Source: Auricularia sp. M13 (lineage: Eukaryota; Basidiomycota; Agaricomycetes; Auriculariales; Auriculariaceae). Taken from it: a stretch of 64,000 nucleotides of DNA. Made by a program: the position numbers and the translations under genes. The notes beneath the pieces are model-generated. The model made no database searches and was not told where the DNA came from. It worked only from the letters and a program-made list of their open reading frames with translations. Where the stretch lies: contig CM073195.1 of the NCBI GenBank assembly GCA_037042915.1, positions 4,030,001 through 4,094,000 of the forward strand, given 5' to 3'. Positions 34,430 to 63,540 of this stretch are shown piece by piece; the stretch's first letter is position 1; each line of letters starts with the position of its first letter.

Positions 34430-34742
34430 CAAGGATGCGAATTGCACCGAGGTCTCGCCTTGACCGAAGTCCAGGAGGCGCAGAATTGGACCACCAGCGA
34501 CGACTGGTGGTCACTTCCTGCGCATCATATTCGGCGAAAATCATGCGCTAGCCCAAGCTGACGTCCAGAGATATAAATTCTAGAGCGCAGGGCGTATCCG
34601 CATATAATTCAAGCCAAATGAAGCTGTATAGCGTCACAAGTCTGTCCGTAATGCTCGTCATGGGCAGAGGAAAGAAGTGTTCGGCTCATTCCGTTCCTTG
34701 CCCGCCCTTCACGTCCAACCAGCTACCTAATATCCAGTCAGC
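34430..34742 (+). promoter_or_regulatory. Upstream region of PIG-T copy 2
   Basis: The sequence is shared in inverse orientation with 11,369-11,700. AGAGATATAAAT at 34,568-34,579 is a TATA-like site. A second TATAAT lies at 34,603. The region begins only about 60 bp after the stop of dehydrogenase copy 2. Confidence 0.55.
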
Positions 34743-40289: not shown

Positions 40290-42231
40290 ATGCGTCCGGA
40301 GGATGAAAGGTCCGAATGCTGAGAGAGATTCTCGCGAGACGCACCAGAAGTTCGGCTCATGGCAGGCAGGAATTCAGTCTCGTCGACACCTGACACGAAG
40401 ATCCTGACCAGTGAACGAGATGCAAGTATAACTCTCTGCAAGACACCTTCTGCAGATCATATTAACCACGCCCAAGAGCACTATCACGTGGCCGCACCCA
40501 TGCGGCTGTCGTTTACACAACAAGCATTGACAGCCTTGTCGAGAGGCGATTTGGTCGATACAGAGTCTTTCAAGTGCCTCGGAGTTAATTGATGTTGAGC
40601 GTCTGACCTGGCCAATTCAACCAGCCGCCCGGCATGACTCGGATACTGCGTTGAATGAATGAGGCATTCTAGTGCAAATCAAGTGCTGCCGCAAGCGCTG
40701 ACATGGCTGAAAGGTCACATGATGTGGGTTCAATCGCTGGCATCCGCTGCACGCCGGGAAGTGGCCGACTGGTTGACAGAACGAGGCCGAGGTTCGACAG
40801 CACACCTCATCGCCCACACTTGTTAAAGCCGAATGCTCATGCACACCGATGTGGTCACGTATTCAATGGTTAAGCGTAGTATTCCGACGATTTCATTGGG
40901 CTTTGTAGTTCCTGACAGCTGCAATATCAAGCGGTCGTGCTATGAGATCACCTCATGCGGGGTCAGTCCTACACGCGCTATAACGAATGAATTGCACAGG
41001 GGCGGATCCACAGCCCTGCCGGCATGGGACTAACTAGAACGCCCTGGGCGCCAACTCCCACAAGCCTGCGTAATGGCATCCCTTCACTAACTGTATGGGT
41101 AGGTCTATTACGCGCTTTCCAGGAAAAGAATCGTGCCGCGGTCGCGGTGAGACTACGCAGGATTCCCTCCCTCATTGAACGAGGGGTTCGATAGCATCGG
41201 AAAACTACTTTTCGGCGCGCTTTGGGTCCAGCCTCCGGCTATTCCAATACCTTTCACTTTCCGAGCTAAATCTAAATGGGCAACTGAATGTCAAGACTGA
41301 GACCTGGCCGAAGACGCTGTTGGGGATGATGGTTCCGACTCTGGGCATTTTGCCACGCAGCGCGGTTCGCCAGACTATCTAGGAAGCCTACACGGCACCT
41401 ATTTCAATATACCCGCTGATATCCTGTAGTTATGTGCGCAACCTGTAGCTTGCGGCTTTGCTGATGCCGCCGTCACTGTATATTCAAAGTATATTCTGGA
41501 TTACTTTGCTGGTGGGATTAGTGACGCCGGCCGGTTGACTGAACAACAAACACAGCATGATGTCCCTCTGACTCGCGTCTATATATCTTGCCCAGGCGGA
41601 ATCTCGCACATGAAATCTGCAGGAAGGTCTTTCGGCGCTAACAGCTATGTTCAAAACGATAGACCCCACGGCCGATTTCTGCGTTTTGACGCGGCGAGGT
41701 GGCGCCTACCATACGAGGTATCCTAAGCGAGCAGCCAGCCAATCCGGTGGCGAGTTGGCTCGCTTAGGACGTCCGGATCAGCTGTTCCGACGTAGTTCAC
41801 TTTTTTCGGAAGGGGTCTATCGTTATGAACATAGCTGAAAGTCACGTGACACCGTGTCGACACAGCGTACTGCAACTCCATATTTCGGAGATAGTAATGG
41901 TCTGTATGATGGTGCGTAATACCTTATGACCAAGTCTCCGAGACTCAGGCGGAGGCCTGCGACACGATACCTCCACACCTTCATACAGTTTACTCATCGC
42001 CAACCAATGGCGGTGGACCTTCGCTTCCCTCGTGGGCCTCGTTCCAGACACAAATGTCATCATATTCGTCTTACTACGCACATAAACGAGGCGCAAGTAC
42101 GCGTTCGCACACCCTATTTGAATTGCCTGAATCTCCATGTGGATGCTTGGTCAGCCACGTTAGCGATGCCGCCTTTTGCTCTGCGTGCTTAGCGATGGCG
42201 ACGTGGAACCCGCGTCGTCGGGATTATAAGC
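40290..42231. other. Intergenic, left flank of the giant element
   Basis: No gene is seen in this 1.9 kb. Before the insertion it was probably the distant upstream region of dehydrogenase copy 3. Confidence 0.5.
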
Positions 42232-42234
42232 AAG

Positions 42235-42876
42235 CACTGGGCCCGATGACAAGGATATCTCAAGAATTGTTTGAGGATATCGCGCTGTCATTCGGACACT
42301 ACGCACCAGGATTGCTCAAGAATCACATGCTGTAATCCTGGTGTGATCCTCAAGCCAATAGTTTGGATAACAGTCCAGGATAGCACGAGGAATTCATGCT
42401 GAAAACCTGGTGAAAACCTGGTGAGAATTTGTAGATCATATTCAAGATAGTGTTCCAGGATTTCTCGAAATTTCAGTCTTGCTTTTCCTCGTGCGATCCT
42501 TGAGCAACAGGTACAACTTTATTCGAGGAATGTTCGCTGAAAACCTTGTGTAAACCTTGTGAGATACTGTGGTAAATACTTACTGAAATAGACAAGGTTT
42601 TCTCAAGGTTTTCTCAGTGGGATCCTCATGGGTTCCTCAAGACTAAATGACAAGATTGGCAAGAAATTCGCTCAAGTCACACATGAAGGGGTCCTTGTGT
42701 GATTCTTGAGGGATTGTATTGGTTAGTGGTTGAGGATGGCATGGGGAGATACTGAAGAAAACCTCATGGTCATATTTCAGTTTAGTCGCGAGAATGACAT
42801 GTGGTTCGCAGGATGTGAATCTGGAGAAATCCTGGAATGAGAATAAAGAGAGTTGTTTGTTTGCAATTGGAATCCA
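42235..42876 (+). repeat. Left terminal inverted repeat, 642 bp
   Basis: It pairs base for base with the reverse complement of 59,659-60,300. The first 60 bp are identical. About 13 mismatches are spread over the rest, without gaps (about 98% identity). Confidence 0.93.
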
Positions 42877-43140
42877 AGAGCAGAAAGAGTGAGACATCAG
42901 GGATGGTGATTGAGGAATCCAGGTCATGCGCAAAATGCCTGTCCCAAAATGGAAAATGAAAGATTTCAGAAAGATTGCAAGCACCCAAAGGGGGAAAATG
43001 GTTGATGGCACAGCAAGTTGGAACCCAAATAGGGATTGTCTCAGCCAGGGGTACGACTGGGGCCTGAATGGTGTTTTTAAGGGAGAGGAGAGACACAGTG
43101 GTGGTTGACACATTGCGGGTGGCGGTTTCTGTGACAAGCA
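42877..43140. other. Unique internal segment beside the left arm
   Basis: 264 bp of non-repeat sequence between the left arm and the array. It has no counterpart on the right side and may be the last remnant of the element's original interior. No conserved protein motif is seen. Confidence 0.6.
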
Positions 43141-46100
43141 GTGTCGAACATGTCGAACAGCGTGGCCAACCACCGCGGACGATCGGAGCGTGAGAAACCG
43201 CGATTCAGGGTTCAATTGCACCCCAGGAAGATTCTTTCGCGTTACGGAATGCGATTTGATATTGGGAAAGAGGATAGATTCTGCGGAAGAGTGCTCGACA
43301 CTGCGCGTCACAGCAACCACCACCCACGCTGTGTCGTCGACCACTGCGGACGTTTGGACTGCGAGAAACCGCGATTCAGGGTTCAATCGCACCCCAGGAA
43401 CATCCTTTTGCGTTCCGCAATGCGATTTGATATTGGGAAAGAGGGCAGATTGTGCAGGAGAGTGATTTCGGATGAGCTGAGCGTGACGTGTCTGTGCGTT
43501 CTGAGCCACCCACGCTGTGTCGCCAACCACCACGGACGTTCGGACTGTGGGAAACCGAGATTCAGGGTCCAATCGCACCCCAGGAACATTCTTTCGCGTT
43601 CCGCAATGCGATTTGATATTGCGAAAGAGGGCAGATTGTGCAGGAGAGTGCTTGACACTGCGCGTCACAGCAACCACCACCCACGCTGTGTCGTCAACGA
43701 CTGTGGACGTTTGGACTGCGAGAAACCGCGATTCAGGGTCCAATCGCACCCCAGGAACATTCTTTCGTGTTCCGAAATGCGATTTGATATTGCGAAAGAG
43801 GACAGATTGTGCAGGAGAGTGCTCGACACTGCGCGTCACAGCAACCACTACCCACGCTGTGTCGTCGACGACTGCGGACGTTTGGACTGCGAGAAACCGC
43901 GATTCAGGGTCCAATCGCACCCCAGGAACATTCTTTCGTGTTCGGAAATGCGATTTGATATTGCGAAAGAGGACAGATTGTGCAGGAGAGTGCTCGACAC
44001 TGCGCGTCACAGCAACCACCACCCACGCTGTGTCGTCGACCACTGCGGACGTTTGGACTGCGAGAAACCGCGATTCAGGGTCCAATCGCACCCCAGGAAC
44101 ATTCTTTCGTGTTCGGAAATGCGATTTGATATTGCGAAAGAGGACAGATTGTGCAGGAGAGTGCTTGACACTGCGCGTCACAGCAACCACCACCCACGCT
44201 GTGTCGTCGACGACTGCGGACGTTTGGACTGCGAGAAACCGCGATTCAGGGTCCAATCGCACCCCAGGAACATTCTTTCGTGTTCGGAAATGCGATTTGA
44301 TATTGCGAAAGAGGACAGATTGTGCAGGAGAGTGCTCGACACTGCGCGTCACAGCAACCACCACCCACGCTGTGTCGTCGACCACTGTGTCACGGCAGAG
44401 CGCTCGTCACTCGCCGAGACCGACGCCCAAGAGAGGAGAGAGGGACGAGGAAGAACGGACAAGCGGTACAATTGACCAGACCAAACCTAGGGTACACGCA
44501 TCTACACCCTACAACCTATATACCCCTTCCCAAGGTCCGCTGATCCGGTCCAGGGTGATCCCGGAGCTAAAGGGTCCACCCACCATCGTCTCCCATGGGG
44601 CCAACATCATACCACACTCCAGTCGAACAGGGTCCGAGACAGGGTGAAGGTGCCGAGGTATGCTACACACATACACACCCACCGAGGGCACGGACCGAGA
44701 AGGAGGGCCCCTCCCGAGTACACAGAGAGAGCGCCGAGCTGTTGAGGCCACGGGCCGAGGATCCGAGGGTGTAGTCGAGCTTGTACCAGGCGACGATAAC
44801 CAACCTACTATCCATCCGAGGAGTACCGCACCCACGAGAAGTCCAACCGAGGCGTTCCCGACCCTCCGAGGCCGCTCAAGGTGACCCGCCGAGTCAGCCC
44901 GAGGTCCAGAGGTGGTCCTGGAGCTTGTCCCGAGCACCGTAACGCCCATATCCGACGCATACAGAGGGGAGAGCTGCCGAACCCTGGTCCGAGGAGAAGA
45001 AGCCTCCACCGAGCCGAATTGGGGTATGCGCCGAGGTCGTCTCATCCTCTAGGCAGGTGGAGAACGGCGCATCGATCGTATCCCGAGTTGAGCAGCCCGA
45101 GGCGTATAACCCTGGCCGAGTCTCCGTCCGAGGATAAACAGTGCGCCGACTGTATGCAGCAGCGACCGAACGATCGGCGAAGCGGCGTAAAACCCGCGGG
45201 CAAGCGGACAAAGCTTGCGACGGCCGTGATGACCGCAACACACTGCGGACGTTTGGACTGCGAGAAACCGCGATTCAGGGTCCAATCGCACCCCAGGAAC
45301 ATTCTTTCGCGTTCCGCAATGCGATTTGATATTGCGAAAGAGGGCAGATTGTGCAGGAGAGTGCTTGACACTGCGCGTCACAGCAACCACCACCCACGCT
45401 GTGTCGTCGACGACTGCGGACGTTTGGACTGCGAGAAACCGCGATTCAGGGTCCAATCGCACCCCAGGAACATTCTTTCGTGTTCGGAAATGCGATTTGA
45501 TATTGCGAAAGAGGACAGATTGTGCAGGAGAGTGCTCGACACTGCGCGTCACAGCAACCACCACCCACGCTGTGTCGTCGACGACTGCGGACGTTTGGAC
45601 TGCGAGAAACCGCGATTCAGGGTCCAATCGCACCCCAGGAACATTCTTTCGTGTTCGGAAATGCGATTTGATATTGCGAAAGAGGACAGATTGTGCAGGA
45701 GAGTGCTCGACACTGCGCGTCACAGCAACCACCACCCACGCTGTGTCGTCGACCACTGCGGACGTTTGGACTGCGAGAAACCGCGATTCAGGGTCCAATC
45801 GCACCCCAGGAACATTCTTTCGCGTTTCGCAATGCGATTTGATATTGCGAAAGAGGGCAGATTGTGCAGGAGAGTGCTTGACACTGCGCGTCACAGCAAC
45901 CACCACCCACGCTGTGTCGTCGACGACTGCGGACGTTTGGACTGCGAGAAACCGCGATTCAGGGTCCAATCGCACCCCAGGAACATTCTTTCGCGTTTCG
46001 CAATGCGATTTGATATTGCGAAAGAGGGCAGATTGTGCAGGAGAGTGCTTGACACTGCGCGTCACAGCAACCACCACCCACGCTGTGTCGTCGACGACTG

Positions 46101-47900
46101 CGGACGTTTGGACTGCGAGAAACCGCGATTCAGGGTCCAATCGCACCCCAGGAACATTCTTTCGCGTTCCGCAATGCGATTTGATATTGGGAAAGAGGAC
46201 AGATTGTGCAGGAGAGTGCTTGACACTGCGCGTCACAGCAACCACCACCCACGCTGTGTCGTCGACGACTGCGGACGTTTGGACTGCGAGAAACCGCGAT
46301 TCAGGGTCCAATCGCACCCCAGGAACATTCTTTCGTGTTCGGAAATGCGATTTGATATTGCGAAAGAGGACAGATTGTGCAGGAGAGTGTTTCGACACTG
46401 CGCGTCACAGCAACCACCACCCACGCTGTGTCGTCGACGACTGCGGACGTTTGGACTGCGAGAAACCGCGATTCAGGGTCCAATCGCACCCCAGGAACAT
46501 TCTTTCGTGTTCGGAAATGCGATTTGATATTGCGAAAGAGGACAGATTGTGCAGGAGAGTGCTCGACACTGCGCGTCACAGCAACCACCACCCACGCTGT
46601 GTCGTCGACCACTGCGGACGTTTGGACTGCGAGAAACCGCGATTCAGGGTCCAATCGCACCCCAGGAACATTCTTTCGCGTTCCGCAATGCGATTTGATA
46701 TTGCGAAAGAGGACAGATTGTGCAGGAGAGTGCTCGACACTACGCGTCACAGCAACCACCACCCACGCTGTGTCGTCGACCAATGCGGACGTTTGGACTG
46801 CGAGAAACCGCGATTCAGGGTCCAATCGCACCCCAGGAACATTCTTTCGCGTTCCGCAATGCGATTTGATATTGGGAAAGAGGACAGATTGTGCGGAAGA
46901 GTGATTTCGGATGAGCTGAGCGTGACGTGTCTGTGCGTTCTGAGCCACCCACGCTGTGTCGCCAACCACCACGGACGTTCGGACTGTGGGAAACCGCGAT
47001 TCAGGGTCCAATCGCACCCCAGGAACATTCTTTCGCGTTCCGCAATGCGATTTGATATTGCGAAAGAGGGCAGATTGTGCAGGAGAGTGCTTGACACTGC
47101 GCGTCACAGCAACCACCACCCACGCTGTGTCGTCGACGACTGCGGACGTTTGGACTGCGAGAAACCGCGATTCAGGGTCCAATCGCACCCCAGGAACATT
47201 CTTTCGTGTTCCGAAATGCGATTTGATATTGCGAAAGAGGACAGATTGTGCAGGAGAGTGCTCGACACTGCGCGTCACAGCAACCACCACCCACGCTGTG
47301 TCGTCGACCACTGCGGACGTTTGGACTGCGAGAAACCGCGATTCAGGGTCCAATCGCACCCCAGGAACATTCTTTCGCGTTTCGCAATGCGATTTGATAT
47401 TGCGAAAGAGGGCAGATTGTGCAGGAGAGTGCTTGACACTGCGCGTCACAGCAACCACCACCCACGCTGTGTCGTCGACGACTGCGGACGTTTGGACTGC
47501 GAGAAACCGCGATTCAGGGTCCAATCGCACCCCAGGAACATTCTTTCGCGTTCCGCAATGCGATTTGATATTGGGAAAGAGGACAGATTGTGCGGAAGAG
47601 TGATTTTGGATGAGCTGAGCATGACGTGTCTGTGCGTTCTGAGCCACCCACGCTGTGTCGCCAACCACCACGGACGTTCGGACTGTGGGAAACCGCGATT
47701 CAGGGTCCAATCGCACCCCAGGAACATTCTTTCGCGTTCCGCAATGCGATTTGATATTGCGAAAGAGGGCAGATTGTGCAGGAGAGTGCTTGACACTGCG
47801 CGTCACAGCAACCACCACCCACGCTGTGTCGTCAACGACTGCGGACGTTTGGACTGCGAGAAACCGCGATTCAGGGTCCAATCGCACCCCAGGAACATTC
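43141..47900. repeat. Satellite array, left block
   Basis: Tandem monomers with two lengths. Type A is 171 bp (…GTCGTCGACCACTGCGGACG…). Type B is 186 bp, with a different linker containing GATGAGCTGAGCGTGACG and then GTCGCCAACCACCACGGACG. Spacing between successive GTGTCG junctions (43,331, 43,517, 43,688, 43,859) gives 186, 171 and 171. The shared core reads GAAACCGCGATTCAGGGTCC…ATGCGATTTGATATTG. Sub-variants differ at a few linked sites (CGCGTTCCGCAATGCG, CGTGTTCCGAAATGCG, CGTGTTCGGAAATGCG). The outermost monomer (43,141-43,330) is the most diverged, as expected at the edge of a satellite. Solo LTR copy 1 interrupts the block. Confidence 0.93.
44388..45240. mobile_element. Solo LTR in satellite, copy 1
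   Basis: It starts TGTCACGGCAGAGCG and ends GACCGCAACA, i.e. TG…CA ends. The monomer word CACTG is duplicated on both sides (44,383-44,387 and 45,241-45,245), a 5-bp target duplication. About 853 bp, with a TATATA at 44,518. Start, end and duplication fit a solo LTR of a Ty3-type retrotransposon; no internal gag or pol sequence is seen. It holds about 20 copies of CCGAG, all on the plus strand. Confidence 0.75.
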
Positions 47901-48383
47901 GAGAACCTGACACTGCCCCCTGGTTCCAGGAGGATTCCAGGTGGAATTCCGGTGGAAAACCTGCTCCAGACAAAATATTTTCTAAGGGGTAAAAAATTAT
48001 GTTAGACATCACAAATAAGGTTCAGAGATGCACAGCCGCCTCAGGAAACATGAAAACGTTCTAGTAACCTAACCTAACCTAACCTAACCTAACCCCTAAC
48101 CTAACCTAACCTAACCTAACTCCTAACCTAACCTAACCTAACCTAACCTAACCTAACACTTAATCACAGTTTTTGATGAATTTCCACATTGTTTCCAGTG
48201 GAATTCCACCGGAATTCGGCCATTCTGGCCCATCCGATCCAACAGTCCAGTGGAATTCCACCCAAATTCCACCTTAGGGGGTACATCATCAAAATATGAT
48301 GGATTTGACATTCTGACACTTTTTTTGCATAGTTGCATTTTTCCACCTGGAATCCACCTGGAATTGGGGGGCACAGTCACTTA
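47901..48383. mobile_element. 483-bp MITE with 11-bp target duplication
   Basis: The satellite word CAGGAACATTC is present on both sides (47,890-47,900 and 48,384-48,394), and the array resumes exactly after it. The insert has imperfect inverted ends: left TGACACTGCCCCCTGGTTCC, right inverse TGACTGTGCCCCCCAATTCC, each followed by CAGG[A/T]GGATTCCAGGTGG. An 11-bp duplication points to a Mutator-like (MULE) element. It contains repeated GGAATTCCACC words and a (CCTAA)n tract, and no coding frame. It is present once in the window, so it landed after the array was built or outside the amplified unit. Confidence 0.75.
48066..48157. repeat. (CCTAA)n tract inside the MITE
   Basis: About 16-17 CCTAA units broken by two short interruptions (CCCCTAA, CTCCTAA). 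The pentamer TTAGG is the insect-type telomere unit. Fungal telomeres usually use TTAGGG, so this is an internal microsatellite and not a chromosome end. Confidence 0.9.
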
Positions 48384-48506
48384 CAGGAACATTCTTTCGT
48401 GTTCCGAAATGCGATTTGATATTGCGAAAGAGGACAGATTGTGCAGGAGAGTGCTCGACACTGCGCGTCACAGCAACCACCACCCACGCTGTGTCGTCGA
48501 CCACTG

Positions 48507-49361
48507 TGTCACGGCAGAGCGCTCGTCACTCGCCGAGACCGACGCCCAAGAGAGGAGAGAGGGACGAGGAAGAACGGACAAGCGGTACAATTGACCAGAC
48601 CAAACCTAGGGTACACGCATCTACACCCTACAACCTATATACCCCTTCCCAAGGTCCGCTGATCCGGTCCAGGGTGATCCCGGAGCTAAAGGGTCCACCC
48701 ACCATCGTCTCCCATGGGGCCAACATCATACCACACTCCAGTCGAACAGGGTCCGAGACAGGGTGAAGGTGCCGAGGTATGCTACACACATACACACCCA
48801 CCGAGGGCACGGACCGAGAAGGAGGGCCCCTCCCGAGTACACAGAGAGAGCGCCGAGCTGTTGAGGCCACGGGCCGAGGATCCGAGGGTGTAGTCGAGCT
48901 TGTACCAGGCGACGATAACCAACCTACTATCCATCCGAGGAGTACCGCACCCACGAGAAGTCCAACCGAGGCGTTCCCGACCCTCCGAGGCCGCTCAAGG
49001 TGACCCGCCGAGTCAGCCCGAGGTCCAGAGGTGGTCCTGGAGCTTGTCCCGAGCACCGTAACGCCCATATCCGACGCATACAGAGAGGGGAGAGCTGCCG
49101 AACCCTGGTCCGAGGAGAAGAAGCCTCCACCGAGCCGAATTGGGGTATGCGCCGAGGTCGTCTCATCCTCTAGGCAGGTGGAGAACGGCGCATCGATCGT
49201 ATCCCGAGTTGAGCAGCCCGAGGCGTATAACCCTGGCCGAGTCTCCGTCCGAGGATAAACAGTGCGCCGACTGTATGCAGCAGCGACCGAACGATCGGCG
49301 AAGCGGCGTAAAACCCGCGGGCAAGCGGACAAAGCTTGCGACGGCCGTGATGACCGCAACA
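48507..49361. mobile_element. Solo LTR in satellite, copy 2
   Basis: Same ends and same CACTG flanks as the copy at 44,388. Near-identical over 855 bp; the visible length difference lies in a short AG/G run. It shares the insertion site, so it arose by amplification and not by a new insertion. Confidence 0.75.
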
Positions 49362-51109
49362 CACTGCGGACGTTTGGACTGCGAGAAACCGCGATTCAGG
49401 GTCCAATCGCACCCCAGGAACATTCTTTCGCGTTCCGCAATGCGATTTGATATTGCGAAAGAGGACAGATTGTGCAGGAGAGTGCTCGACACTGCGCGTC
49501 ACAGCAACCACCACCCACGCTGTGTCGTCGACGACTGCGGACGTTCGGACTGTGGGAAACCGCGATTCAGGGTCCAATCGCACCCCAGGAACATTCTTTC
49601 GCGTTCCGCAATGCGATTTGATATTGCGAAAGAGGGCAGATTGTGCAGGAGAGTGCTTGACACTGCGCGTCACAGCAACCACCACCCACGCTGTGTCGTC
49701 GGCGACTGCGGACGTTCGGACTGCGAGAAACCGCGATTCAGGGTCCAATCGCACCCCAGGAACATTCTTTTGCGTTCCGCAATGCGATTTGATATTGCGA
49801 AAGAGGACAGATTGTGCAGGAGAGTGCTCGACACTACGCGTCACAGCAACCACCCCCCACGCTGTGTCGTCGACCACTGCGGACGTTTGGACTGCGAGAA
49901 ACCGCGATTCAGGGTCCAATCGCACCCCAGGAACATTCTTTCGCGTTCCGCAATGCGATTTGATATTGGGAAAGAGGACAGATTGTGCGGAAGAGTGATT
50001 TCGGATGAGCTGAGCGTGACGTGTCTGTGCCTTCTGAGCCACCCACGCTGTGTCGCCAACCACCACGGACGTTCGGACTGTGGGAAACCGCGATTCAGGG
50101 TCCAATCGCACCCCAGGAACATTCTTTCGCGTTCCGCAATGCGATTTGATATTGCGAAAGAGGGCAGATTGTGCAGGAGAGTGCTTGACACTGCGCGTCA
50201 CAGCAACCACCACCCACGCTGTGTCGTCGACGACTGCGGACGTTTGGACTGCGAGAAACCGCGATTCAGGGTCCAATCGCACCCCAGGAACATTCTTTCG
50301 TGTTCCGAAATGCGATTTGATATTGCGAAAGAGGACAGATTGTGCAGGAGAGTGCTCGACACTGCGCGTCACAGCAACCACCACCCACGCTGTGTGTCGT
50401 CGACCACTGCGGACGTTTGGACTGCGAGAAACCGCGATTCAGGGTCCAATCGCACCCCAGGAACATTCTTTCGCGTTTCGCAATGCGATTTGATATTGCG
50501 AAAGAGGGCAGATTGTGCAGGAGAGTGCTTGACACTGCGGCGTCACAGCAACCACCACCCACGCTGTGTCGTCGACGACTGCGGACGTTTGGACTGCGAG
50601 AAACCGCGATTCAGGGTCCAATCGCACCCCAGGAACATTCTTTCGCGTTCCGCAATGCGATTTGATATTGGGAAAGAGGACAGATTGTGCGGAAGAGTGA
50701 TTTTGGATGAGCTGAGCATGACGTGTCTGTGCGTTCTGAGCCACCCACGCTGTGTCGCCAACCACCACGGACGTTCGGACTGTGGGAAACCGCGATTCAG
50801 GGTCCAATCGCACCCCAGGAACATTCTTTCGCGTTCCGCAATGCGATTTGATATTGCGAAAGAGGGCAGATTGTGCAGGAGAGTGCTTGACACTGCGCGT
50901 CACAGCAACCACCACCCACGCTGTGTCGTCAACGACTGCGGACGTTTGGACTGCGAGAAACCGCGATTCAGGGTCCAATCGCACCCCAGGAACATTCTTT
51001 CGTGTTCCGAAATGCGATTTGATATTGCGAAAGAGGACAGATTGTGCAGGAGAGTGCTCGACACTGCGCGTCACAGCAACCACCACCCACGCTGTGTCGT
51101 CGACCACTG

Positions 51110-51965
51110 TGTCACGGCAGAGCGCTCGTCACTCGCCGAGACCGACGCCCAAGAGAGGAGAGAGGGACGAGGAAGAACGGACAAGCGGTACAATTGACCA
51201 GACCAAACCTAGGGTACACGCATCTACACCCTACAACCTATATACCCCTTCCCAAGGTCCGCTGATCCGGTCCAGGGTGATCCCGGAGCTAAAGGGTCCA
51301 CCCACCATCGTCTCCCATGGGGCCAACATCATACCACACTCCAGTCGAACAGGGTCCGAGACAGGGTGAAGGTGCCGAGGTATGCTACACACATACACAC
51401 CCACCGAGGGCACGGACCGAGAAGGAGGGCCCCTCCCGAGTACACAGAGAGAGCGCCGAGCTGTTGAGGCCACGGGCCGAGGATCCGAGGGTGTAGTCGA
51501 GCTTGTACCAGGCGACGATAACCAACCTACTATCCATCCGAGGAGTACCGCACCCACGAGAAGTCCAACCGAGGCGTTCCCGACCCTCCGAGGCCGCTCA
51601 AGGTGACCCGCCGAGTCAGCCCGAGGTCCAGAGGTGGTCCTGGAGCTTGTCCCGAGCACCGTAACGCCCATATCCGACGCATACAGAGAGGGGGAGAGCT
51701 GCCGAACCCTGGTCCGAGGAGAAGAAGCCTCCACCGAGCCGAATTGGGGTATGCGCCGAGGTCGTCTCATCCTCTAGGCAGGTGGAGAACGGCGCATCGA
51801 TCGTATCCCGAGTTGAGCAGCCCGAGGCGTATAACCCTGGCCGAGTCTCCGTCCGAGGATAAACAGTGCGCCGACTGTATGCAGCAGCGACCGAACGATC
51901 GGCGAAGCGGCGTAAAACCCGCGGGCAAGCGGACAAAGCTTGCGACGGCCGTGATGACCGCAACA
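51110..51965. mobile_element. Solo LTR in satellite, copy 3
   Basis: Third copy, 856 bp, in the identical monomer context with CACTG on both sides. The distance to the start of copy 2 is 2603 bp. Confidence 0.75.
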
Positions 51966-53711
51966 CACTGCGGACGTTTGGACTGCGAGAAACCGCGATT
52001 CAGGGTCCAATCGCACCCCAGGAACATTCTTTCGCGTTCCGCAATGCGATTTGATATTGCGAAAGAGGACAGATTGTGCAGGAGAGTGCTCGACACTGCG
52101 CGTCACAGCAACCACCACCCACGCTGTGTCGTCGACGACTGCGGACGTTCGGACTGTGGGAAACCGCGATTCAGGGTCCAATCGCACCCCAGGAACATTC
52201 TTTCGCGTTCCGCAATGCGATTTGATATTGCGAAAGAGGGCAGATTGTGCAGGAGAGTGCTTGACACTGCGCGTCACAGCAACCACCACCCACGCTGTGT
52301 CGTCGACGACTGCGGACGTTTGGACTGCGAGAAACCGCGATTCAGGGTCCAATCGCACCCCAGGAACATTCTTTTGCGTTCCGCAATGCGATTTGATATT
52401 GCGAAAGAGGACAGATTGTGCAGGAGAGTGCTCGACACTCACGCGTCACAGCAACCACCCCCACGCTGTGTCGTCGACCACTGCGGACGTTTGGACTGCG
52501 AGAAACCGCGATTCAGGGTCCAATCGCACCCCAGGAACATTCTTTCGCGTTCCGCAATGCGATTTGATATTGGGAAAGAGGACAGATTGTGCGGAAGAGT
52601 GATTTCGGATGAGCTGAGCGTGGCGTGTCTGTGCCTTCTGAGCCACCCACGCTGTGTCGCCAACCACCACGGACGTTCGGACTGTGGGAAACCGCGATTC
52701 AGGGTCCAATCGCACCCCAGGAACATTCTTTCGCGTTCCGCAATGCGATTTGATATTGCGAAAGAGGGCAGATTGTGCAGGAGAGTGCTTGACACTGCGC
52801 GTCACAGCAACCACCACCCACGCTGTGTCGTCGACGACTGCGGACGTTTGGACTGCGAGAAACCGCGATTCAGGGTCCAATCGCACCCCAGGAACATTCT
52901 TTCGTGTTCCGAAATGCGATTTGATATTGCGAAAGAGGACAGATTGTGCAGGAGAGTGCTCGACACTGCGCGTCACAGCAACCACCACCCACGCTGTGTC
53001 GTCGACCACTGCGGACGTTTGGACTGCGAGAAACCGCGATTCAGGGTCCAATCGCACCCCAGGAACATTCTTTCGCGTTTCGCAATGCGATTTGATATTG
53101 CGAAAGAGGGCAGATTGTGCAGGAGAGTGCTTGACACTGCGCGTCACAGCAACCACCACCCACGCTGTGTCGTCGACGACTGCGGACGTTTGGACTGCGA
53201 GAAACCGCGATTCAGGGTCCAATCGCACCCCAGGAACATTCTTTCGCGTTCCGCAATGCGATTTGATATTGGGAAAGAGGACAGATTGTGCGGAAGAGTG
53301 ATTTTGGATGAGCTGAGCGTGACGTGTCTGTGCGTTCTGAGCCACCCACGCTGTGTCGCCAACCACCACGGACGTTCGGACTGTGGGAAACCGCGATTCA
53401 GGGTCCAATCGCACCCCAGGAACATTCTTTCGCGTTCCGCAATGCGATTTGATATTGCGAAAGAGGGCAGATTGTGCAGGAGAGTGCTTGACACTGCGGC
53501 GTCACAGCAACCACCACCCACGCTGTGTCGTCAACGACTGCGGACGTTTGGACTGCGAGAAACCGCGATTCAGGGTCCAATCGCACCCCAGGAACATTCT
53601 TTCGTGTTCCGAAATGCGATTTGATATTGCGAAAGAGGACAGATTGTGCAGGAGAGTGCTCGACACTGCGCGTCACAGCAACCACCACCCACGCTGTGTC
53701 GTCGACCACTG

Positions 53712-54567
53712 TGTCACGGCAGAGCGCTCGTCACTCGCCGAGACCGACGCCCAAGAGAGGAGAGAGGGACGAGGAAGAACGGACAAGCGGTACAATTGAC
53801 CAGACCAAACCTAGGGTACACGCATCTACACCCTACAACCTATATACCCCTTCCCAAGGTCCGCTGATCCGGTCCAGGGTGATCCCGGAGCTAAAGGGTC
53901 CACCCACCATCGTCTCCCATGGGGCCAACATCATACCACACTCCAGTCGAACAGGGTCCGAGACAGGGTGAAGGTGCCGAGGTATGCTACACACATACAC
54001 ACCCACCGAGGGCACGGACCGAGAAGGAGGGCCCCTCCCGAGTACACAGAGAGAGCGCCGAGCTGTTGAGGCCACGGGCCGAGGATCCGAGGGTGTAGTC
54101 GAGCTTGTACCAGGCGACGATAACCAACCTACTATCCATCCGAGGAGTACCGCACCCACGAGAAGTCCAACCGAGGCGTTCCCGACCCTCCGAGGCCGCT
54201 CAAGGTGACCCGCCGAGTCAGCCCGAGGTCCAGAGGTGGTCCTGGAGCTTGTCCCGAGCACCGTAACGCCCATATCCGACGCATACAGAGAGGGGGAGAG
54301 CTGCCGAACCCTGGTCCGAGGAGAAGAAGCCTCCACCGAGCCGAATTGGGGTATGCGCCGAGGTCGTCTCATCCTCTAGGCAGGTGGAGAACGGCGCATC
54401 GATCGTATCCCGAGTTGAGCAGCCCGAGGCGTATAACCCTGGCCGAGTCTCCGTCCGAGGATAAACAGTGCGCCGACTGTATGCAGCAGCGACCGAACGA
54501 TCGGCGAAGCGGCGTAAAACCCGCGGGCAAGCGGACAAAGCTTGCGACGGCCGTGATGACCGCAACA
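53712..54567. mobile_element. Solo LTR in satellite, copy 4
   Basis: Fourth copy, 856 bp, the same flanks. The distance to the start of copy 3 is 2602 bp, which defines the higher-order period. Confidence 0.75.
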
Positions 54568-57500
54568 CACTGCGGACGTTTGGACTGCGAGAAACCGCGA
54601 TTCAGGGTCCAATCGCACCCCAGGAACATTCTTTCGCGTTCCGCAATGCGATTTGATATTGCGAAAGAGGACAGATTGTGCAGGAGAGTGCTCGACACTG
54701 CGCGTCACAGCAACCACCATCCACGCTGTGTCGTCGACGACTGCGGACGTTCGGACTGTGGGAAACCGCGATTCAGGGTCCAATCGCACCCCAGGAACAT
54801 TCTTTCGCGTTCCGCAATGCGATTTGATATTGCGAAAGAGGGCAGATTGTGCAGGAGAGTGCTTGACACTGCGCGTCACAGCAACCACCACCCACGCTGT
54901 GTCGTCGACGACTGCGGACGTTTGGACTGCGAGAAACCGCGATTCAGGGTCCAATCGCACCCCAGGAACATTCTTTTGCGTTCCGCAATGCGATTTGATA
55001 TTGCGAAAGAGGACAGATTGTGCAGGAGAGTGCTCGACACTACGCGTCACAGCAACCACCCCCCACGCTGTGTCGTCGACCACTGCGGACGTTTGGACTG
55101 CGAGAAACCGCGATTCAGGGTCCAATCGCACCCCAGGAACATTCTTTCGCGTTCCGCAATGCGATTTGATATTGGGAAAGAGGACAGATTGTGCGGAAGA
55201 GTGATTTCGGATGAGCTGAGCGTGACGTGTCTGTGCCTTCTGAGCCACCCACGCTGTGTCGCCAACCACCACGGACGTTCGGACTGTGGGAAACCGCGAT
55301 TCAGGGTCCAATCGCACCCCAGGAACATTCTTTCGCGTTCCGCAATGCGATTTGATATTGCGAAAGAGGGCAGATTGTGCAGGAGAGTGCTTGACACTGC
55401 GCGTCACAGCAACCACCACCCACGCTGTGTCGTCAACGACTGCGGACGTTTGGACTGCGAGAAACCGCGATTCAGGGTCCAATCGCACCCCAGGAACATT
55501 CTTTCGTGTTCGGAAATGCGATTTGATATTGCGAAAGAGGACAGATTGTGCAGGAGAGTGCTCGACACTGCGCGTCACAGCAACCACCACCCACGCTGTG
55601 TCGTCGACCACTGCGGACGTTTGGACTGCGAGAAACCGCGATTCAGGGTCCAATCGCACCCCAGGAACATTCTTTCGCGTTCCGAAATGCGATTTGATAT
55701 TGCGAAAGAGGACAGATTGTGCGGAAGAGTGATTTCGGATGAGCTGAGCGTGACGTGTCTGTGCGTTCTGAGCCACCCACGCTGTGTCGCCAACCACCAC
55801 GGACGTTCGGACTGTGGGAAACCGCGATTCCGGGTCCAATCGCACCCCAGGAACATTCTTTCGCGTTCCGCAATGCGATTTGATATTGCGAAAGAGGACA
55901 GATTGTGCAGGAGAGTGCTTGACACTGCGCGTCACAGCAACCACCACCCACGCTGTATCGTCGACCACTGCGGACGTTTGGACTGCGAGAAACCGCGATT
56001 CAGGGTCCAATCGCACCCCAGGAACATTCTTTCGCGTTCCGCAATGCGATTTGATATTGGGAAAGAGGACAGATTGTGCGGAAGAGTGATTTCGGATGAG
56101 CTGAGCGTGACGTGTCTGTGCGTTCTGAGCCACCCACGCTGTGTCGCCAACCACCACGGACGTTCGGACTGTGGGAAACCGCGATTCAGGGTCCAATCGC
56201 ACCCCAGGAACATTCTTTCGCGTTCCGCAATGCGATTTGATATTGCGAAAGAGGGCAGATTGTGCAGGAGAGTGCTTGACACTGCGCGTCACAGCAACCA
56301 CCACCCACGCTGTGTCGTCGACGACTGCGGACGTTTGGACTGCGAGAAACCGCGATTCAGGGTCCAATCGCACCCCAGGAACATTCTTTCGTGTTCCGAA
56401 ATGCGATTTGATATTGCGAAAGAGGACAGATTGTGCGGAAGAGTGATTTCGGATGAGCTGAGCGTGACGTGTCTGTGCGTTCTGAGCCACCCACGCTGTG
56501 TCGCCAACCACCACGGACGTTCGGACTGTGGGAAACCGCGATTCAGGGTCCAATCGCACCCCAGGAACATTCTTTCGCGTTCCGCAATGCGATTTGATAT
56601 TGCGAAAGAGGACAGATTGTGCAGGAGAGTGCTTGACACTGCGCGTCACAGCAACCACCACCCACGCTGTGTCGTCGACCACTGCGGACGTTTGGACTGC
56701 GAGAAACCGCGATTCAGGGTCCAATCGCACCCCAGGAACATTCTTTCTCGTTCCGCAATGCGATTTGATATTGCGAAAGAGGACAGATTGTGCAGGAGAG
56801 TGCTCGACACTACGCGTCACAGCAACCACCACCCACGCTGTGTCGTCGACCACTGCGGACGTTTGGACTGCGAGAAACCGCGATTCAGGGTCCAATCGCA
56901 CCCCAGGAACATCCTTTCGTGTTCCGCAATGCGATTTGATATTGGGAAAGACGACAGATTGTGCGGAAGAGTGATTTCGGATGAGCTGAGCGTGACGTGT
57001 CTGTGCGTTCTGAGCCACCCACGCTGTGTCGCCAACCACCACGGACGTTCGGACTGTGGGAAACCGCGATTCCGGGTCCAATCGCACCCCAGGAACATTC
57101 TTTCGCGTTCCGCAATGCGATTTGATATTGCGAAAGAGGACAGATTGTGCAGGAGAGTGCTTGACACTGCGCGTCACAGCAACCACCACCCACGCTGTGT
57201 CGTCGACCACTGCGGACGTTTGGACTGCGAGAAACCGCGATTCAGGGTCCAATCGCACCCCAGGAACATTCTTTCGTGTTCCGCAATGCGATTTGATATT
57301 GGGAAAGAGGACAGATTGTGCGGAAGAGTGATTTCGGATGAGCTGAGCGTGACGTGTCTGTGCGTTCTGAGCCACCCACGCTGTGTAGCCAACCACCACG
57401 GACGTTCGGACTGTGGGAAACCGCGATTCCGGGTCCAATCGCACCCCAGGAACATTCTTTCGTGTTCCGAAATGCGATTTGATATTGCGAAAGAGGACAG

Positions 57501-59658
57501 ATTGTGCGGAAGAGTGATTTCGGATGAGCTGAGCGTGACGTGTCTGTGCCTTCTGAGCCACCCACGCTGTGTCGCCAACCACCACGGACGTTCGGACTGT
57601 GGGAAACCGCGATTCAGGGTCCAATCGCACCCCAGGAACATTCTTTCGCGTTCCGCAATGCGATTTGATATTGCGAAAGAGGGCAGATTGTGCAGGAGAG
57701 TGCTTGACACTGCGCGTCACAGCAACCACCACCCACGCTGTGTCGTCGACGACTGCGGACGTTTGGACTGCGAGAAACCGCGATTCAGGGTCCAATCGCA
57801 GACTGTGGGAAACCGCGATTCCGGGTCCAATCGCACCCCAGGAACATTCTTTCGCGTTCCGCAATGCGATTTGATATTGCGAAAGAGGACAGATTGTGCA
57901 GGAGAGTGCTTGACACTGCGCGTCACAGCAACCACCACCCACGCTGTATCGTCGACCACTGCGGACGTTTGGACTGCGAGAAACCGCGATTCAGGGTCCA
58001 ATCGCACCCCAGGAACATTCTTTCGCGTTCCGCAATGCGATTTGATATTGGGAAAGAGGACAGATTGTGCGGAAGAGTGATTTCGGATGAGCTGAGCGTG
58101 ACGTGTCTGTGCGTTCTGAGCCACCCACGCTGTGTAGCCAACCACCACGGACGTTCGGACTGTGGGAAACCGCGATTCCGGGTCCAATCGCACCCCAGGA
58201 ACATTCTTTCGCGTTCCGCAATGCGATTTGATATTGCGAAAGAGGACAGATTGTGCAGGAGAGTGCTTGACACTGCGCGTCACAGCAACCACCACCCACG
58301 CTGTATCGTCGACCACTGCGGACGTTTGGACTGCGAGAAACCGCGATTCAGGGTCCAATCGCACCCCAGGAACATTCTTTCGCGTTCCGCAATGCGATTT
58401 GATATTGGGAAAGAGGACAGATTGTGCGGAAGAGTGATTTCGGATGAGCTGAGCGTGACGTGTCTGTGCGTTCTGAGCCACCCACGCTGTGTCGCCAACC
58501 ACCACGGACGTTCGGACTGTGGGAAACCGCGATTCAGGGTCCAATCGCACCCCAGGAACATTCTTTCGCGTTCCGCAATGCGATTTGATATTGCGAAAGA
58601 GGGCAGATTGTGCAGGAGAGTGCTTGACACTGCGCGTCACAGCAACCACCACCCACGCTGTGTCGTCGACCACTGCGGACGTTTGGACTGCGAGAAACCG
58701 CGATTCAGGGTCCAATCGCACCCCAGGAACATTCTTTCGCGTTCCGCAATGCGATTTGATATTGGGAAAGAGGACAGATTGTGCGGAAGAGTGATTTCGG
58801 ATGAGCTGAGCGTGACGTGTCTGTGCGTTCTGAGCCACCCACGCTGTGTCGCCAACCACCACGGACGTTCGGACTGTGGGAAACCGCGATTCAGGGTCCA
58901 ATCGCACCCCAGGAACATTCTTTCGCGTTCCGCAATGCGATTTGATATTGCGAAACAGGACAGATTGTGCAGGAGAGTGCTCGACACTACGCGTCACAGC
59001 AACCACCACCCACGCTGTGTCGCCAACCACCACGGACGTTCGGACTGTGGGAAACCGCGATTCAGGGTCCAATCGCACCCCAGGAACATTCTTTCGCGTT
59101 CCGCAATGCGATTTGATATTGCGAAAGAGGACAGATTGTGCAGGAGAGTGCTCGACACTACGCGTCACAGCAACCACCACCCACGCTGTGTCGTCGACCA
59201 CTGCGGACGTTTGGACTGCAAGAAACCGCGATTCAGGGTCCAATCGCACCCCAGGAACATTCTTTCGCGTTCCGCAATGCGATTTGATATTGGGAAAGAG
59301 GACAGATTGTGCGGAAGAGTGATTTCGGATGAGCTGAGCGTGACGTGTCTGTGCGTTCTGAGCCACCCACGCTGTGTCGCCAACCACCACGGACGTTCGG
59401 ACTGTGGGAAACCGCGATTCAGGGTCCAATCGCACCCCAGGAACATTCTTTCGCGTTCCGCAATGCGATTTGATATTGCGAAAGAGGACAGATTGTGCAG
59501 GAGAGTGCTCGACACTACGCGTCACAGCAACCACCACCCACGCTGTGTCGTCGACCACTGCGGACGTTTGGACTGCGAGAAACCGCGATTCAGGGTCCAA
59601 TCGCACCCCAGGAACATTCTTTCGCGTTCCGCAATGCCATTTGATATTGGGAAAGAGG

Positions 59659-60300
59659 TGGATTCCAATTGCAAACAAACAACTCTCTTTATTCTCATTT
59701 CAGGATTTCTCCAGATTCACATCCTGCGAACCACATGTCATTCTTGCGACTAAACTGAAATATGACCACAAGGTTTTCTTCAGTATCTCCCCATGCCATC
59801 CTCAACCACTAACCAATACAACCCCTCAAGAATCACACAAGGACCCCTTCATGTGTGACTTGAGCAAATTTCTTGCCAATCTTGTCATTTAGTCTTGAGG
59901 AACCCATGAGGATCCCACTGAGAAAACCTTGAGAAAACCTTGTCTATTTCAGTAAGTATTTACCACAGTATCTCACAAGGTTTACACAAGGTTTTCTGCG
60001 AACATTCCTCGAATAAAGTTGTACCTGTTACTCAAGGATCGCACGAGGAAAAGCAAGACTGAAATTTCGAGAAATCCTGGAACACTATCTTGAATATGAT
60101 CTACAAATTCTCACCAGGTTTTCACCTGGTTTTCATCAAGAATTCCTCGTGCTATCCTGGACTCTTATCCAAACTATTGGCTTGAGGATCACACGAGGAT
60201 TACAGCATGTGATTCTTGAGCAATCCTGGTGCGTAGTGTCCGAATGACAGCGCGATATCCTCAAACAATTCTTGAGATATCCTTGTCATCGGGCCCAGTG
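59659..60300 (-). repeat. Right terminal inverted repeat, 642 bp
   Basis: The inverse of 42,235-42,876. Its inner edge (TGGATTCC) abuts the last satellite monomer directly. The left arm is instead followed by 264 bp of unique sequence (42,877-43,140) before the array begins. Confidence 0.93.
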
Positions 60301-60361
60301 AAGACTTCTCTGGTTCGTGAGCATGAGTCAGCTTATAAGTTTTTTACGGCGCTCGCAGGGG

Positions 60362-60368
60362 TATAAAA
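60362..60368 (+). promoter_or_regulatory. TATA box of dehydrogenase copy 3
   Basis: TATAAAA, 71 bp before the ATG at 60,439 and 62 bp after the end of the giant element. The core promoter therefore survived the insertion, while everything upstream is now transposon. Confidence 0.6.
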
Positions 60369-60438
60369 CGCTATATAGGTATCCTGGGATTGGATCATAT
60401 CGACATCCAACATCGTTTCGCCGTTGCTTACTCGAAAT

Positions 60439-61863
60439 ATGTCTACGCAAACTGAAATCACGGCCCGCGAATGGCGCATCGCTGATGTTGGTGTCGCTTC
60501 CGATGCTTCCCGCGCGGTTCTAACCTAAGTATACAGCCGCCGAATGGCTACGACGGGCTCCGTCTGCACGACAAGCAGGTCGGCACGCTGGGCGCGACAG
60601 ACGTTCTAGTCAAGGTCCACGCCGTGTCGCTGCAGGTGAGTTCAGCAGGCGCCAGTTGATGACAACTTGCTCATCAGGATGCAGTACCGCGACATGATGG
60701 TTGCGAAGGGACAGTATCCGCTCCCGTAAGCTAACTCGTACAAACACCAGCTTCAAACTCGTGCTCACCTTGGTCCACAGTGTGAAGCCTTCGGCCGTGC
60801 TGGGCTCCGATGCCGCGGGAGAGGTGGTGCGCGTCGGCAGCGAGGTGTCCAAATGGCGCGCGGGCGATCGCGTCGCCGCCAACTTCAACATCCTGCACAT
60901 CCACGGCGAGTTTGACGCGACGAGCAAGGACGGCGCGCTCGGCGCCGCGATCGACGGCGTGCTCAGCACATATAAGGTCTTGCCGGCCGAGGTAAGCATG
61001 CGCACGCATATAGTCTGAATGTGCATGGCAGCGGGCGCTGAGACAGGATGCAGTCGTTGGTGAAGATCCCGGACTACCTGAGCTTCGCCGAGGCGTCGAC
61101 GCTGCCGTGCGCCGCGGTGACGGCGTACAACGCGCTGCTCGGCGGGCCACACCCGCTCAAGGGCGGCGATACGGTACTCGTCGAGGGCACCGGCGGCGTG
61201 TCGATCTTCGCCTTGCAGTTTGCACTCGCGAGCGGCGCAGTACCCATCGTCCTGACCAGCTCGGCCGAGAAGATCGCTGCTGTGAAGAAACTTGGTGTGG
61301 AGCACGTCATCAATTATAAGGAGACGCCCGAGTGGCAGGAGGAGGTGTTGAAGCTGGTGCGTAAAGTATCGAGGTCGCCGCAAGAAGTTGATACTGACAC
61401 CGTCGTCGTAGACCGACGGCGAGGGCGTGCACCACGTGATCGACGTCGCCGGCGGGAAGACGCTCGACAAAGCTCTCCGGTGCACACGATTCGGCGGGAC
61501 AGTCAGCGCCATCGGATTCGTCGACGGCGTGAGTTCAGGCCGCAGACACAGGAGTTGATGCTGATAGTATCGCCGCAGGGGATGACCAGCCCGGACGTAG
61601 TGCTCCAGTGCATCATCAAGGCCGTGAATATTCGCGGTATCCAGATCGGCTCCCGCACGCAGTCAGTACAGTTTTGGAGACTCCACCACTGCACAAGTCA
61701 GACTGACGTTGCCTGCAGGTTTGAGGACATGAACAGGCTCCTGGCGGCGCGCCAAATCCGTCCGGTCGTCGACAAGAGTTTCCCGTTCGAGAAGCTCGCC
61801 GACGCGCTCAGGTACCTTGAGTCGCAGAAGCACGTCGGGAAGGTCGTCGTCAATGTCGCTTGA
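60439..61863 (+). CDS. MDR-family dehydrogenase, copy 3
   Basis: It starts [17 protein letters not shown] and ends KHVGKVVVNVA with TGA at 61,861. After splicing it has the full MDR order: [91 protein letters not shown], the nucleotide-binding [47 protein letters not shown] and [16 protein letters not shown]. Intron 1 (GTGTCGCT...TTCTAACC...ATACAG) is clear here. All introns keep GT-AG ends, so the gene looks intact despite lying 138 bp from the transposon end. It is the closest relative of copy 2. The likely role is NAD(P)H-dependent oxidoreduction of an unknown small molecule. Confidence 0.88.
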
Positions 61864-63540
61864 ACAGATGTATTTATACAGGCGCCAGCGCTCCGCATTG
61901 ACCAGGTTATGAAAAAATAAATATAGGCGTGCGCGCAGCCCGTTGCTCTGCACTTGAACAGCAAGCTTCGCAGAATGCGGTGGTGAAAAGAGTTCAACTG
62001 TTCAGACTCCGCTCCGCCTCCTTGACTCCGCACTACTCGCACTCCTTGCGCACTCCACCATCGATCTGATCTTGTAGCGGGTCCCTATTAGATCGTGGAA
62101 CCTCGCCTTTCAGCTCCTCTGACTATGCTCGCCCAAGTTCACCATCCTATTTATCACTTCGCCTCAAGCAACGTGTGCTTCGTGTCCTTTGCTTTGCTGA
62201 CGAGGACTCGGCAACTGGCAGCTCGCAGATTTTTGGTCGTTGCTTTCAGGACTGCTCTGAACCGCGGATGGCATCTCCATGCACTTCTTCGCGCAACTAT
62301 CTTGTGGCTGCTCAGAGCGAGCTGCTCGGATTGCTAGGCACTCATTTACACGCGCAATTACTTGCAGCGGCCTCTAAAATATCTCTTTGCGCATCGATCG
62401 ACTGCGTCCAATTTCTGGGACATCGGCCAGTATCAACACGGCAACCTGAATCCTGTCAATTCCGGTGGATACTGTAGCTTACTGGAATAGTACAAAACGG
62501 ACAGGTCTGATCGGCGTGTGCTTCCAAAGCTGGCTATTTGGGATCAGTCTCGGTCTCGGAGTGCGCGACTCTGCTCTGCACTCGCTCTGGAGACTGGCGC
62601 TTTGAATCCCCTTCGAGTGGACTCTTCCCGGTGGCCCGGCCCCGACCCCCAACTGGAACTGACTCAGCATATGCTCTGCCAGAGACCGATCTGCGTCAAC
62701 GGAACAGTGCCAGTTTTCCCCCCCTATGTCATTGCGGATGTGGAGTGACTGCAGCTCTTTTCTCCCAAGTATTCACTGTGCTCTATAGTACTGGCGACGA
62801 CAAGAACTCGGCGGGCGTCGTTTTACAGTGATTCAGTTTTCAGTTCTGAGCTACGAGGCCAGACCTGCATGGCAGTGCTACCCTGCGTACTTTACTCGCC
62901 CCGTACAGTATTGCCGCGGCCTTCTTGACTTTTCCGCACCTGGCTGTGGGAACGACCAGACCCCCGCGCTAGCTAGATATCACGATGAATGTACAGCACA
63001 GCGGATTTTCTGGCAGGCCCCTTTCAACTGCACTGCTTGTTGACGACGACCGTATCTCCTCTTCGAGCCAATTAATGCACATCTCCGGCCGGGTTCGTAC
63101 TCTCCGTATCCGGGCGAGGCTGAGGATTACTGTATGACTATGATTTCACTCAGGCTACAGTATAGTACGGACGCCTTTCCTTTCGGTACCTGGCAGCGCG
63201 TTGCATGACGACGGCTGCAGGACGATCCAATTGAATCTGCCACTGGTGAGAATCTGAGGCTTCGCAGGGCGGAGCCGGGCTCCGGGTGCGCGGTCCCGCG
63301 CTCGCCTTCTCGAAGGAGTTTCAGTCGGGGCACAACATGTTACATGGGTGCAGTTTGCGCACGCCCTTCCTGAGTTCCTTGCTGCGCAAGGAACATGCTC
63401 AGCTGATGCGCTAGGGGGGACGTTTAGCAGCGCATCCGATCGGGTGGGATAAGAACACGCTATGGATAGTTCTGCCGCACCGCATGTGAATAGGGCGGCG
63501 TGTGGGATGCAGGGTGGGCGAGATTAGAATAGAAGTAGGC
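61864..63540. other. Intergenic, nothing recognised
   Basis: No supported gene. Short open stretches on both strands have no family motif. Confidence 0.45.

Follow-up and report, generated by a model that had tools for sequence, protein, structure and literature searches.

For transposons of the CACTA type, a connection to satellite DNA has been reported from plants. In C. quinoa, a CACTA-like element on scaffold 3389 harbors 32.5 copies of a 171-bp satellite, which account for 5,550 bp of its 16,523 bp (PMC8978399). In this species, a single 171-bp satellite is found in CACTA-like elements of several scaffolds and was interpreted by the authors as captured (PMC8978399). Furthermore, satellites that originated from fragments of a CACTA transposase have been described for Chenopodium (PMC7320549), and Atenspm / ENSAT1 of Arabidopsis represents an En/Spm-like element linked to a satellite (PMC9659126). 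In animals, the miDNA4 MITE of Xenopus tropicalis is non-autonomous and contains an internal satellite motif of variable copy number (PMC9659126, PMC12628747). The foldback element Tetris of Drosophila virilis is apparently non-autonomous as well, and its internal tandem repeats have been amplified to kb-scale arrays (PMC4079207).

The unit analysed here measures 18,066 bp and occupies positions 42235-60300 of the window, which is the whole stretch of 64,000 nucleotides of Auricularia sp. M13 that was examined. It consists of two arms, a spacer, a satellite array and nested inserts (Table 1). Like the C. quinoa element, it is probably of the CACTA type and has a long satellite array with a 171-bp monomer. 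In contrast, the C. quinoa element has retained coding sequence that includes a transposase domain, which was not recognised in the present unit, and its array makes up about one third of the element compared to about 91% here, where nested insertions have been multiplied within the array (PMC8978399). The equal length of the two 171-bp monomers is not taken as kinship. The initial annotation had called a satellite cargo unusual for a DNA transposon. This has to be qualified, as a CACTA-like element with a 171-bp satellite had already been published (PMC8978399).

The unit is similar to miDNA4 in being non-autonomous with an internal satellite; however, miDNA4 is a MITE of the Tc1/mariner type, and a nested higher-order unit bearing an LTR is not mentioned in the excerpts of the reports cited (PMC9659126, PMC12628747). 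In Tetris, the amplified repeats lie within the TIRs (PMC4079207), whereas the arms here are without long tandem repeats. Atenspm / ENSAT1 is listed as autonomous with the repeat in its 5' UTR (PMC9659126), which is different from the situation here. Among the matches listed from the open-licence literature, given as titles and starts of abstracts, no fungal CACTA/EnSpm element with a satellite interior was present, which does not prove its absence, and those listed for the terminal letters were off-topic only. The unit is an extreme variant of a link between transposons and satellites known from plants and animals, from which it differs in degree.

Table 1. Features of the unit and of its borders, with positions in the window.
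Feature	Positions	Strand	Remarks
Left TSD copy AAG	42232..42234		flank comparison
Left terminal inverted repeat	42235..42876	+	starts CACTGGGCCC; dense in CCTNGTG and CTCAAG motifs
Non-array spacer	42877..43159	+	left side only; right edge approximate
Satellite array	43160..59658	+	171-bp A and 186-bp B monomers, nested insertions; left edge approximate, right edge abuts arm
LTR-like copy 1	44388..45240	+	TGTCACGG...CCGCAACA, CACTG flanks
MITE-like insert, 484 bp	47900..48383		10-bp flanking repeat, imperfect inverted ends
LTR-like copy 2	48507..49361	+	
Two complete higher-order units, LAAABAAABA	48507..53711	+	2,603 and 2,602 bp; 4 mismatches
LTR-like copy 3	51110..51965	+	
LTR-like copy 4	53712..54567	+	
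Second internal duplication	57801..59658	+	98.1% copy of 55453-57310, up to right arm
Right terminal inverted repeat	59659..60300	-	ends GGGCCCAGTG
Right TSD copy AAG	60301..60303		flank comparison

The shell of the unit and its family assignment

Near-perfect inverted repeats of 642 bp, special ends and an AAG duplication had been noted before, and all of these are borne out. The left arm aligns with the inverted right arm over 642 positions with 13 mismatches and no gaps (98.0% identity). The inverted homology ceases at CACTGGGCCC on both sides, and the termini of the unit, CACTGGGCCC...GGGCCCAGTG, can be written as CACTG..CAGTG. The direct repeat at the borders is AAG only, with a longer direct match being absent; by simple arithmetic, a direct AAG at both borders has a chance of 1 in 64. 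Within the window, CACTGGGCCC is found three times compared to 0.11 expected. The third occurrence, at 25390, lies outside the unit as part of the lone palindrome CACTGGGCCCCAGTG and was, as an isolated palindrome, rejected as the end of another element.

A self-comparison of the window for inverted pairs (E of 1e-10 or better) yielded three pairs, and only the pair 42235-42876/59659-60300 encloses the array. Another large inverted duplication is located at 9704-11672 / 34466-36428 (89%). The sequences of arm, spacer, monomer, LTR-like and MITE-like insert were searched against the remaining window using short-word BLAST with an E cut-off of 1. Here, arm and monomer gave nothing beyond five matches of 13-17 bp, and the spacer and both inserts gave no match. 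The arm end had no exact match in viral contigs, which carries little weight as a eukaryotic genome is not expected there, and a piece of the monomer had none in viral and prokaryote contigs, collections that are uninformative for a eukaryote.

Both arms are rich in short repeated motifs. In a motif-free test, the commonest 10-mer of the arm, with one mismatch allowed and both strands counted, occurs 7 times versus at most 4 times in 60 shuffles, and the commonest 8-mer reached 13 versus at most 10 in shuffles. The motifs CCTNGTG and CTCAAG were picked by eye from the arm itself and then tested against 300 shuffles: the former occurs 9 times (shuffle mean 0.24, maximum 3) and the latter 8 times (shuffle mean 0.60, maximum 4). 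In the left arm, 7 copies of CCTNGTG are forward and 2 reverse, and for CTCAAG these numbers are 6 and 2. Each arm contains 14.0 CCTNGTG per kb, compared to 0.35 in the remainder of the window and 0.00 in the unit interior; the corresponding densities of CTCAAG are 12.5, 0.65 and 0.24.

Termini of the CAC..GTG form, a 3-bp TSD and closely spaced direct and inverted subterminal repeats, as found here, are the features of CACTA/EnSpm elements. Fungal EnSpm elements of the CMCT clade have been described with CAC..GTG termini and a 3-bp TSD, and the unit agrees with them in termini and TSD length (PMC12730594). However, these families are classified via their transposases (PMC12730594), and none was recognised in the unit: the 7 unit ORFs scanned contain no transposase domain (84 ORFs are listed for 41000-62000). 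Because of the ends, the 3-bp TSD, the motif density and the lack of a transposase domain in the scanned ORFs, the unit is read as a putatively mobile, non-autonomous EnSpm-like element. The initial interpretation is partly supported overall; its transposon reading is supported by the termini, the 3-bp duplication and the dense subterminal motifs, which fit fungal EnSpm.

Two other assignments were rejected. In Plavaka, a fungal CMCT lineage, group A has TGT..ACA ends and a 2-bp TSD and group B has CATCA..TGATG ends and a TSD of 2-3 bp (PMC12730594); the ends of the unit are CACTG..CAGTG. A Tetris-like foldback element was not supported either, as the tandem repeats in the arms amount to an 11-bp unit repeated 2.3 times on the left, and none was detected in the right arm (Tandem Repeats Finder, score 50 or more).

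The unit lies next to genes. A TATAAAA (60362) and an ATG (60439) are present in the right flank. The ATG can be aligned with the beginning of a paralogous gene, and the downstream ORF matches zinc-binding dehydrogenase families. The insertion is thus likely located in a promoter region, 138 bp upstream of the probable start codon of a zinc-alcohol-dehydrogenase-like gene. Gpi16 and F-box genes are also present near the unit and speak for a eukaryotic, likely fungal, region. When the two flanks were compared to the sequences upstream of two paralogs, the alignment started only near the start codon and thus shows no empty site.

Array architecture, nested insertions and timing

Within 42877-59658, a search with a 16-base anchor and up to 3 mismatches detected 73 monomer anchors on the forward and none on the reverse strand, a copy number that is given as assembled, with assembly error being possible for such near-identical repeats. 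Two other anchors gave 71 hits each on the forward and none on the reverse strand. The spacings between anchors are 171 bp (45 times), 186 bp (18 times), 172 bp (three times) and 173 bp (once), and partial units are indicated by one spacing of 35 and one terminal one of 78. Three long spacings of 1029-1032 and one of 1525 represent insertions. Of the 16,499 bp spanned by the array, the four LTR-like copies contribute 3,420 bp and the second insert 484 bp. The initial description of the interior as almost nothing but tandem 171/186-bp monomers therefore needs correction, as monomer DNA amounts to about 12.6 kb, or 70% of the unit.

The 45 type-A monomers of 171 bp diverge by 3.0% on average and the 18 type-B monomers of 186 bp by 1.7%, and the two types differ from each other across a module of about 50 bp. 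Mean identity is 0.945-0.947 at lags 9 and 18 compared to 0.906 at lag 1. In the notation of Table 1, A and B are the monomer types and L is an A monomer with the LTR-like insert. The two complete 2.6-kb units differ at 4 positions compared to 3.0% among A monomers, which confirms the higher-order structure noted earlier. The interval from LTR-like copy 1 to copy 2 is 4,119 bp long and includes additional A monomers as well as the 484-bp insert; apart from large gaps, it has 7 mismatches to a complete unit. The sequence of 2,602 bp that begins with copy 4 shows 55-57 differences and many gaps to the complete units and is out of register because the monomer order changes. The second internal duplication starts with the 35-bp partial monomer, which is likely a duplication scar.

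The LTR-like insert of 853-856 bp is present four times at one monomer position, with the ends TGTCACGG...CCGCAACA and a flanking CACTG repeat that is identical in all four copies. None of the six pairwise comparisons revealed a mismatch and 0-3 gap columns were found; where inspected, the gap between copies 1 and 2 and copy 3 lies in an AGAG/GGGG tract. Solo LTRs are marked by TG..CA ends and a short TSD of 5 bp. Both marks, TG..CA and the 5-bp CACTG, occur in 4/4 copies, and the insert of about 855 bp is a putative solo LTR. Since it is hardly believable that four insertions hit the same base pair independently, the LTR most likely landed once and was then copied. Of the two origins that had been suggested for the element, growth by internal amplification has direct evidence in this insertion, which is found in four copies with 0 substitutions.

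The MITE-like insert is flanked by the 10-bp repeat CAGGAACATT at 47890-47899 and 48384-48393 and contains a TAACC (TTAGG-type) tract at 48065-48157. It lies in the monomer of LTR-like copy 2 and is absent from the other three LTR-bearing monomers. Since it is present in only one of the four, this insert is most likely later than the copying of the LTR; its loss from the other three would be a less simple alternative.

The left spacer of about 280 bp has no counterpart on the right side, where the array meets the arm directly. Its segment 43096-43150, adjoining the first monomer, is identical to the reverse complement of a part of the A monomer in 42 of 55 columns. The score of this alignment is 45, which is reached by none of 1000 mononucleotide shuffles (largest score 32). 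The forward monomer against the spacer, and the monomer against the arm in both orientations, remained within the shuffles. This modest but specific evidence suggests that the satellite may be related to DNA from inside the element itself, or that an inverted unit may once have been present at the edge of the array. The four LTR-like copies, the TTAGG-bearing 484-bp insert and the inverted piece of A monomer in the spacer had all escaped the initial annotation.

Concerning the timing, 34.5 changes would be expected over the four LTR lineages at the 2.0% divergence of the arms, a figure that assumes independent lineages as old as the split of the arms, and 0 are seen. Because of this difference, the last duplication or homogenisation of the LTR blocks is much younger than the divergence of the arms. 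Without a recent duplication, the identity of the LTR copies could also be maintained by gene conversion. The arms' divergence does not date the insertion, because the arms of a DNA transposon may differ already at landing, and for the same reason the age of the LTR blocks is not strictly placed after the insertion at this locus. As the divergence of the A and B monomers is close to that of the arms, the age of the base array could be about that of the arm divergence.

Origin of the array and competing explanations

The unit is probably a non-autonomous transposon of the CACTA/EnSpm type at an AAG site, whose satellite interior has grown by repeated internal duplication. In this scenario, an EnSpm-type element would have inserted at AAG in a gene-bearing region and would have been mobilised by a transposase supplied in trans, acting on the CACTG ends and the subterminal motifs. 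Repeated duplication, either through unequal exchange or of the slippage type, would then have enlarged its satellite interior. An LTR of a retrotransposon would have entered one monomer and become solo, LTR-bearing blocks would have been duplicated until four LTR copies were present, and the small MITE-like element would finally have landed beside one of them. The amplification is placed after the insertion at 42235-60300, as a presumed order of events. Against this explanation, the window has no second copy of the arm, no empty site was seen in the paralog comparison, the scanned ORFs contain no transposase, and the surroundings of the four LTR copies deviate from a clean fourfold repetition of a single unit.

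It is possible, but rather doubtful, that the element is a vehicle, the other origin suggested initially. A satellite already existing in the genome would have been captured or carried by the element, which would spread it by transposition, with the internal duplications being a side effect. The array is already diversified, as A and B differ across the module mentioned above, and the CACTA-like elements of C. quinoa with their 171-bp satellite on several scaffolds offer a published parallel (PMC8978399). However, the rest of the window contains no further copy of arm or monomer, and the diverged inverted piece of A monomer in the left spacer argues in the other direction, because it hints at a monomer tied to the interior of the element. 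For the later growth of the array, such a vehicle is compatible with the preferred explanation of internal duplication.

Two separate small EnSpm elements in opposite orientation on either side of a resident array, with movement via their outer ends, are improbable. The length of the arms would fit, as would the likeness between monomer and arm, which is no greater than in shuffles. Nevertheless, an exact search located CACTGGGCCC at the outer ends and the unrelated site 25390 only and thus not at the inner ends of the arms, and the spacer is present on one side only.

Even less credence is given to a local inverted duplication, in which a resident array would be flanked by a segmental inverted repeat and the arms would not be transposon ends. 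The arms indeed have no copy elsewhere in the window, which also contains another large inverted duplication at 89% identity; but CACTGGGCCC marks the end of the homology on both sides, next to a direct AAG, a 1 in 64 coincidence, and the dense repeated motifs of the arms are unlike their surroundings.

Least probable of all, and very much so, is an array that encodes a repeat protein with its 171/186-bp units, which are multiples of 3. Long open frames occur in the array on both strands, the longest having 1,318 aa between stops, and in the 45 type-A monomers 3 of 6 frames are open, with 0 of 54 substitutions adding a stop compared to 4.9 expected in sum (P 0.0065); this test was post hoc, and no single frame is significant (P 0.15-0.22). 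On the other hand, the variable sites of type A are evenly distributed over the codon positions (17/18/16), the ratios of nonsynonymous to synonymous changes are 0.71-1.14 in the six frames, the 18 type-B monomers do not avoid stops (P 0.38), the four monomers of 172-173 bp lead to a frame shift, and in a Pfam search of three long array ORFs no family passes as a single stretch.

Pfam matches of array ORFs to TPP1 (1.1e-9) and Lipoprotein_21 (5.8e-10) as well as weaker ones were rejected as sums over repeats, and a zinc-finger match of a spacer ORF (E 0.39) was taken as chance. An Rfam search over 42000-60600 gave no match at the gathering score, and no tRNA was detected in the window.

Implications for satellites in transposons

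Satellites inside CACTA elements are already in print, and the gain of the present locus is therefore its completeness and probably the host lineage. The difference is one of degree, in an unusually readable case: the array spans 16.5 of 18.1 kb, the shell is without a recognised gene, and rounds of growth are recorded by the nested insertions.

A more far-reaching idea, which is speculative and on balance unlikely, is a probably fungal EnSpm family of transposase-less shells around a self-expanding satellite. Through mobilisation in trans, kb-scale higher-order arrays would be seeded at new locations rich in genes, where each copy would evolve its own higher-order repeat. If this were true, the inverted piece of A monomer in the spacer would mean that the satellite is home-grown, born from the interior of the element.

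The origin and growth of satellites are hard to trace, as arrays lose the record of their history with age. In the present case, the outer ends of the array can be recognised, and the nested insertions serve as time stamps, the LTR-like insert before the last duplications and the small element most likely after them. A comparison with other copies, should the genome contain any, would show directly whether satellites travel in transposons or arise in each of them.

Stop-codon pattern and a telomere-like tract in the satellite array

Among the type-A monomers (171 bp, n = 45) of the satellite array, none of the 54 substitutions creates a stop codon in any of the three reading frames that the consensus leaves open, versus 4.9 new stops expected (P 0.0065, post hoc test). 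For the type-B monomers (186 bp) of this array, the same test revealed no effect. The 484-bp MITE-like insert of the array contains approximately 18 units of TAACC (TTAGG), and this tract is a telomere-like repeat borne by the MITE-like element.

Duplicated and related stretches

A self-comparison of the window revealed two inverted copies, which are 89% identical over 1,994 columns and both display Pfam matches to the GPI transamidase subunit Gpi16. Since F-box genes are present on opposite strands and an inverted match of 74% was observed, the sequence suggests that this pair is part of a larger inverted duplicated segment.

Furthermore, three stretches are kindred, with aligned pieces being 75–81% identical. 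Stretches 1 and 3 were scanned against Pfam, and both matched zinc-binding dehydrogenase families. Stretch 3 lies immediately downstream of the EnSpm-like element enclosing the array. Elsewhere, shorter repeats surround a perfect 234-bp direct repeat, the starts of which are 548 bp apart.

Coordinates of the features within the window
Feature	Position	Strand	E-value
ORF matching WSC domain	855-1541	-	1.1e-7
Direct repeat, 234 bp	2070-2303 and 2618-2851		
F-box gene	3806-4888	-	
F-box gene	37664-39280	+	
Inverted match, 74%	4564-4745 / 37736-37919		
Inverted copies with Gpi16	9704-11672 / 34466-36428		
Short GCACACC/GCACGCC tandem repeat	26291-26338		
Kindred stretch 1	31315-32442		
Kindred stretch 2	32920-34366		
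Kindred stretch 3	60434-61872		
Satellite array	43160-59658		
TAACC tract	48065-48157
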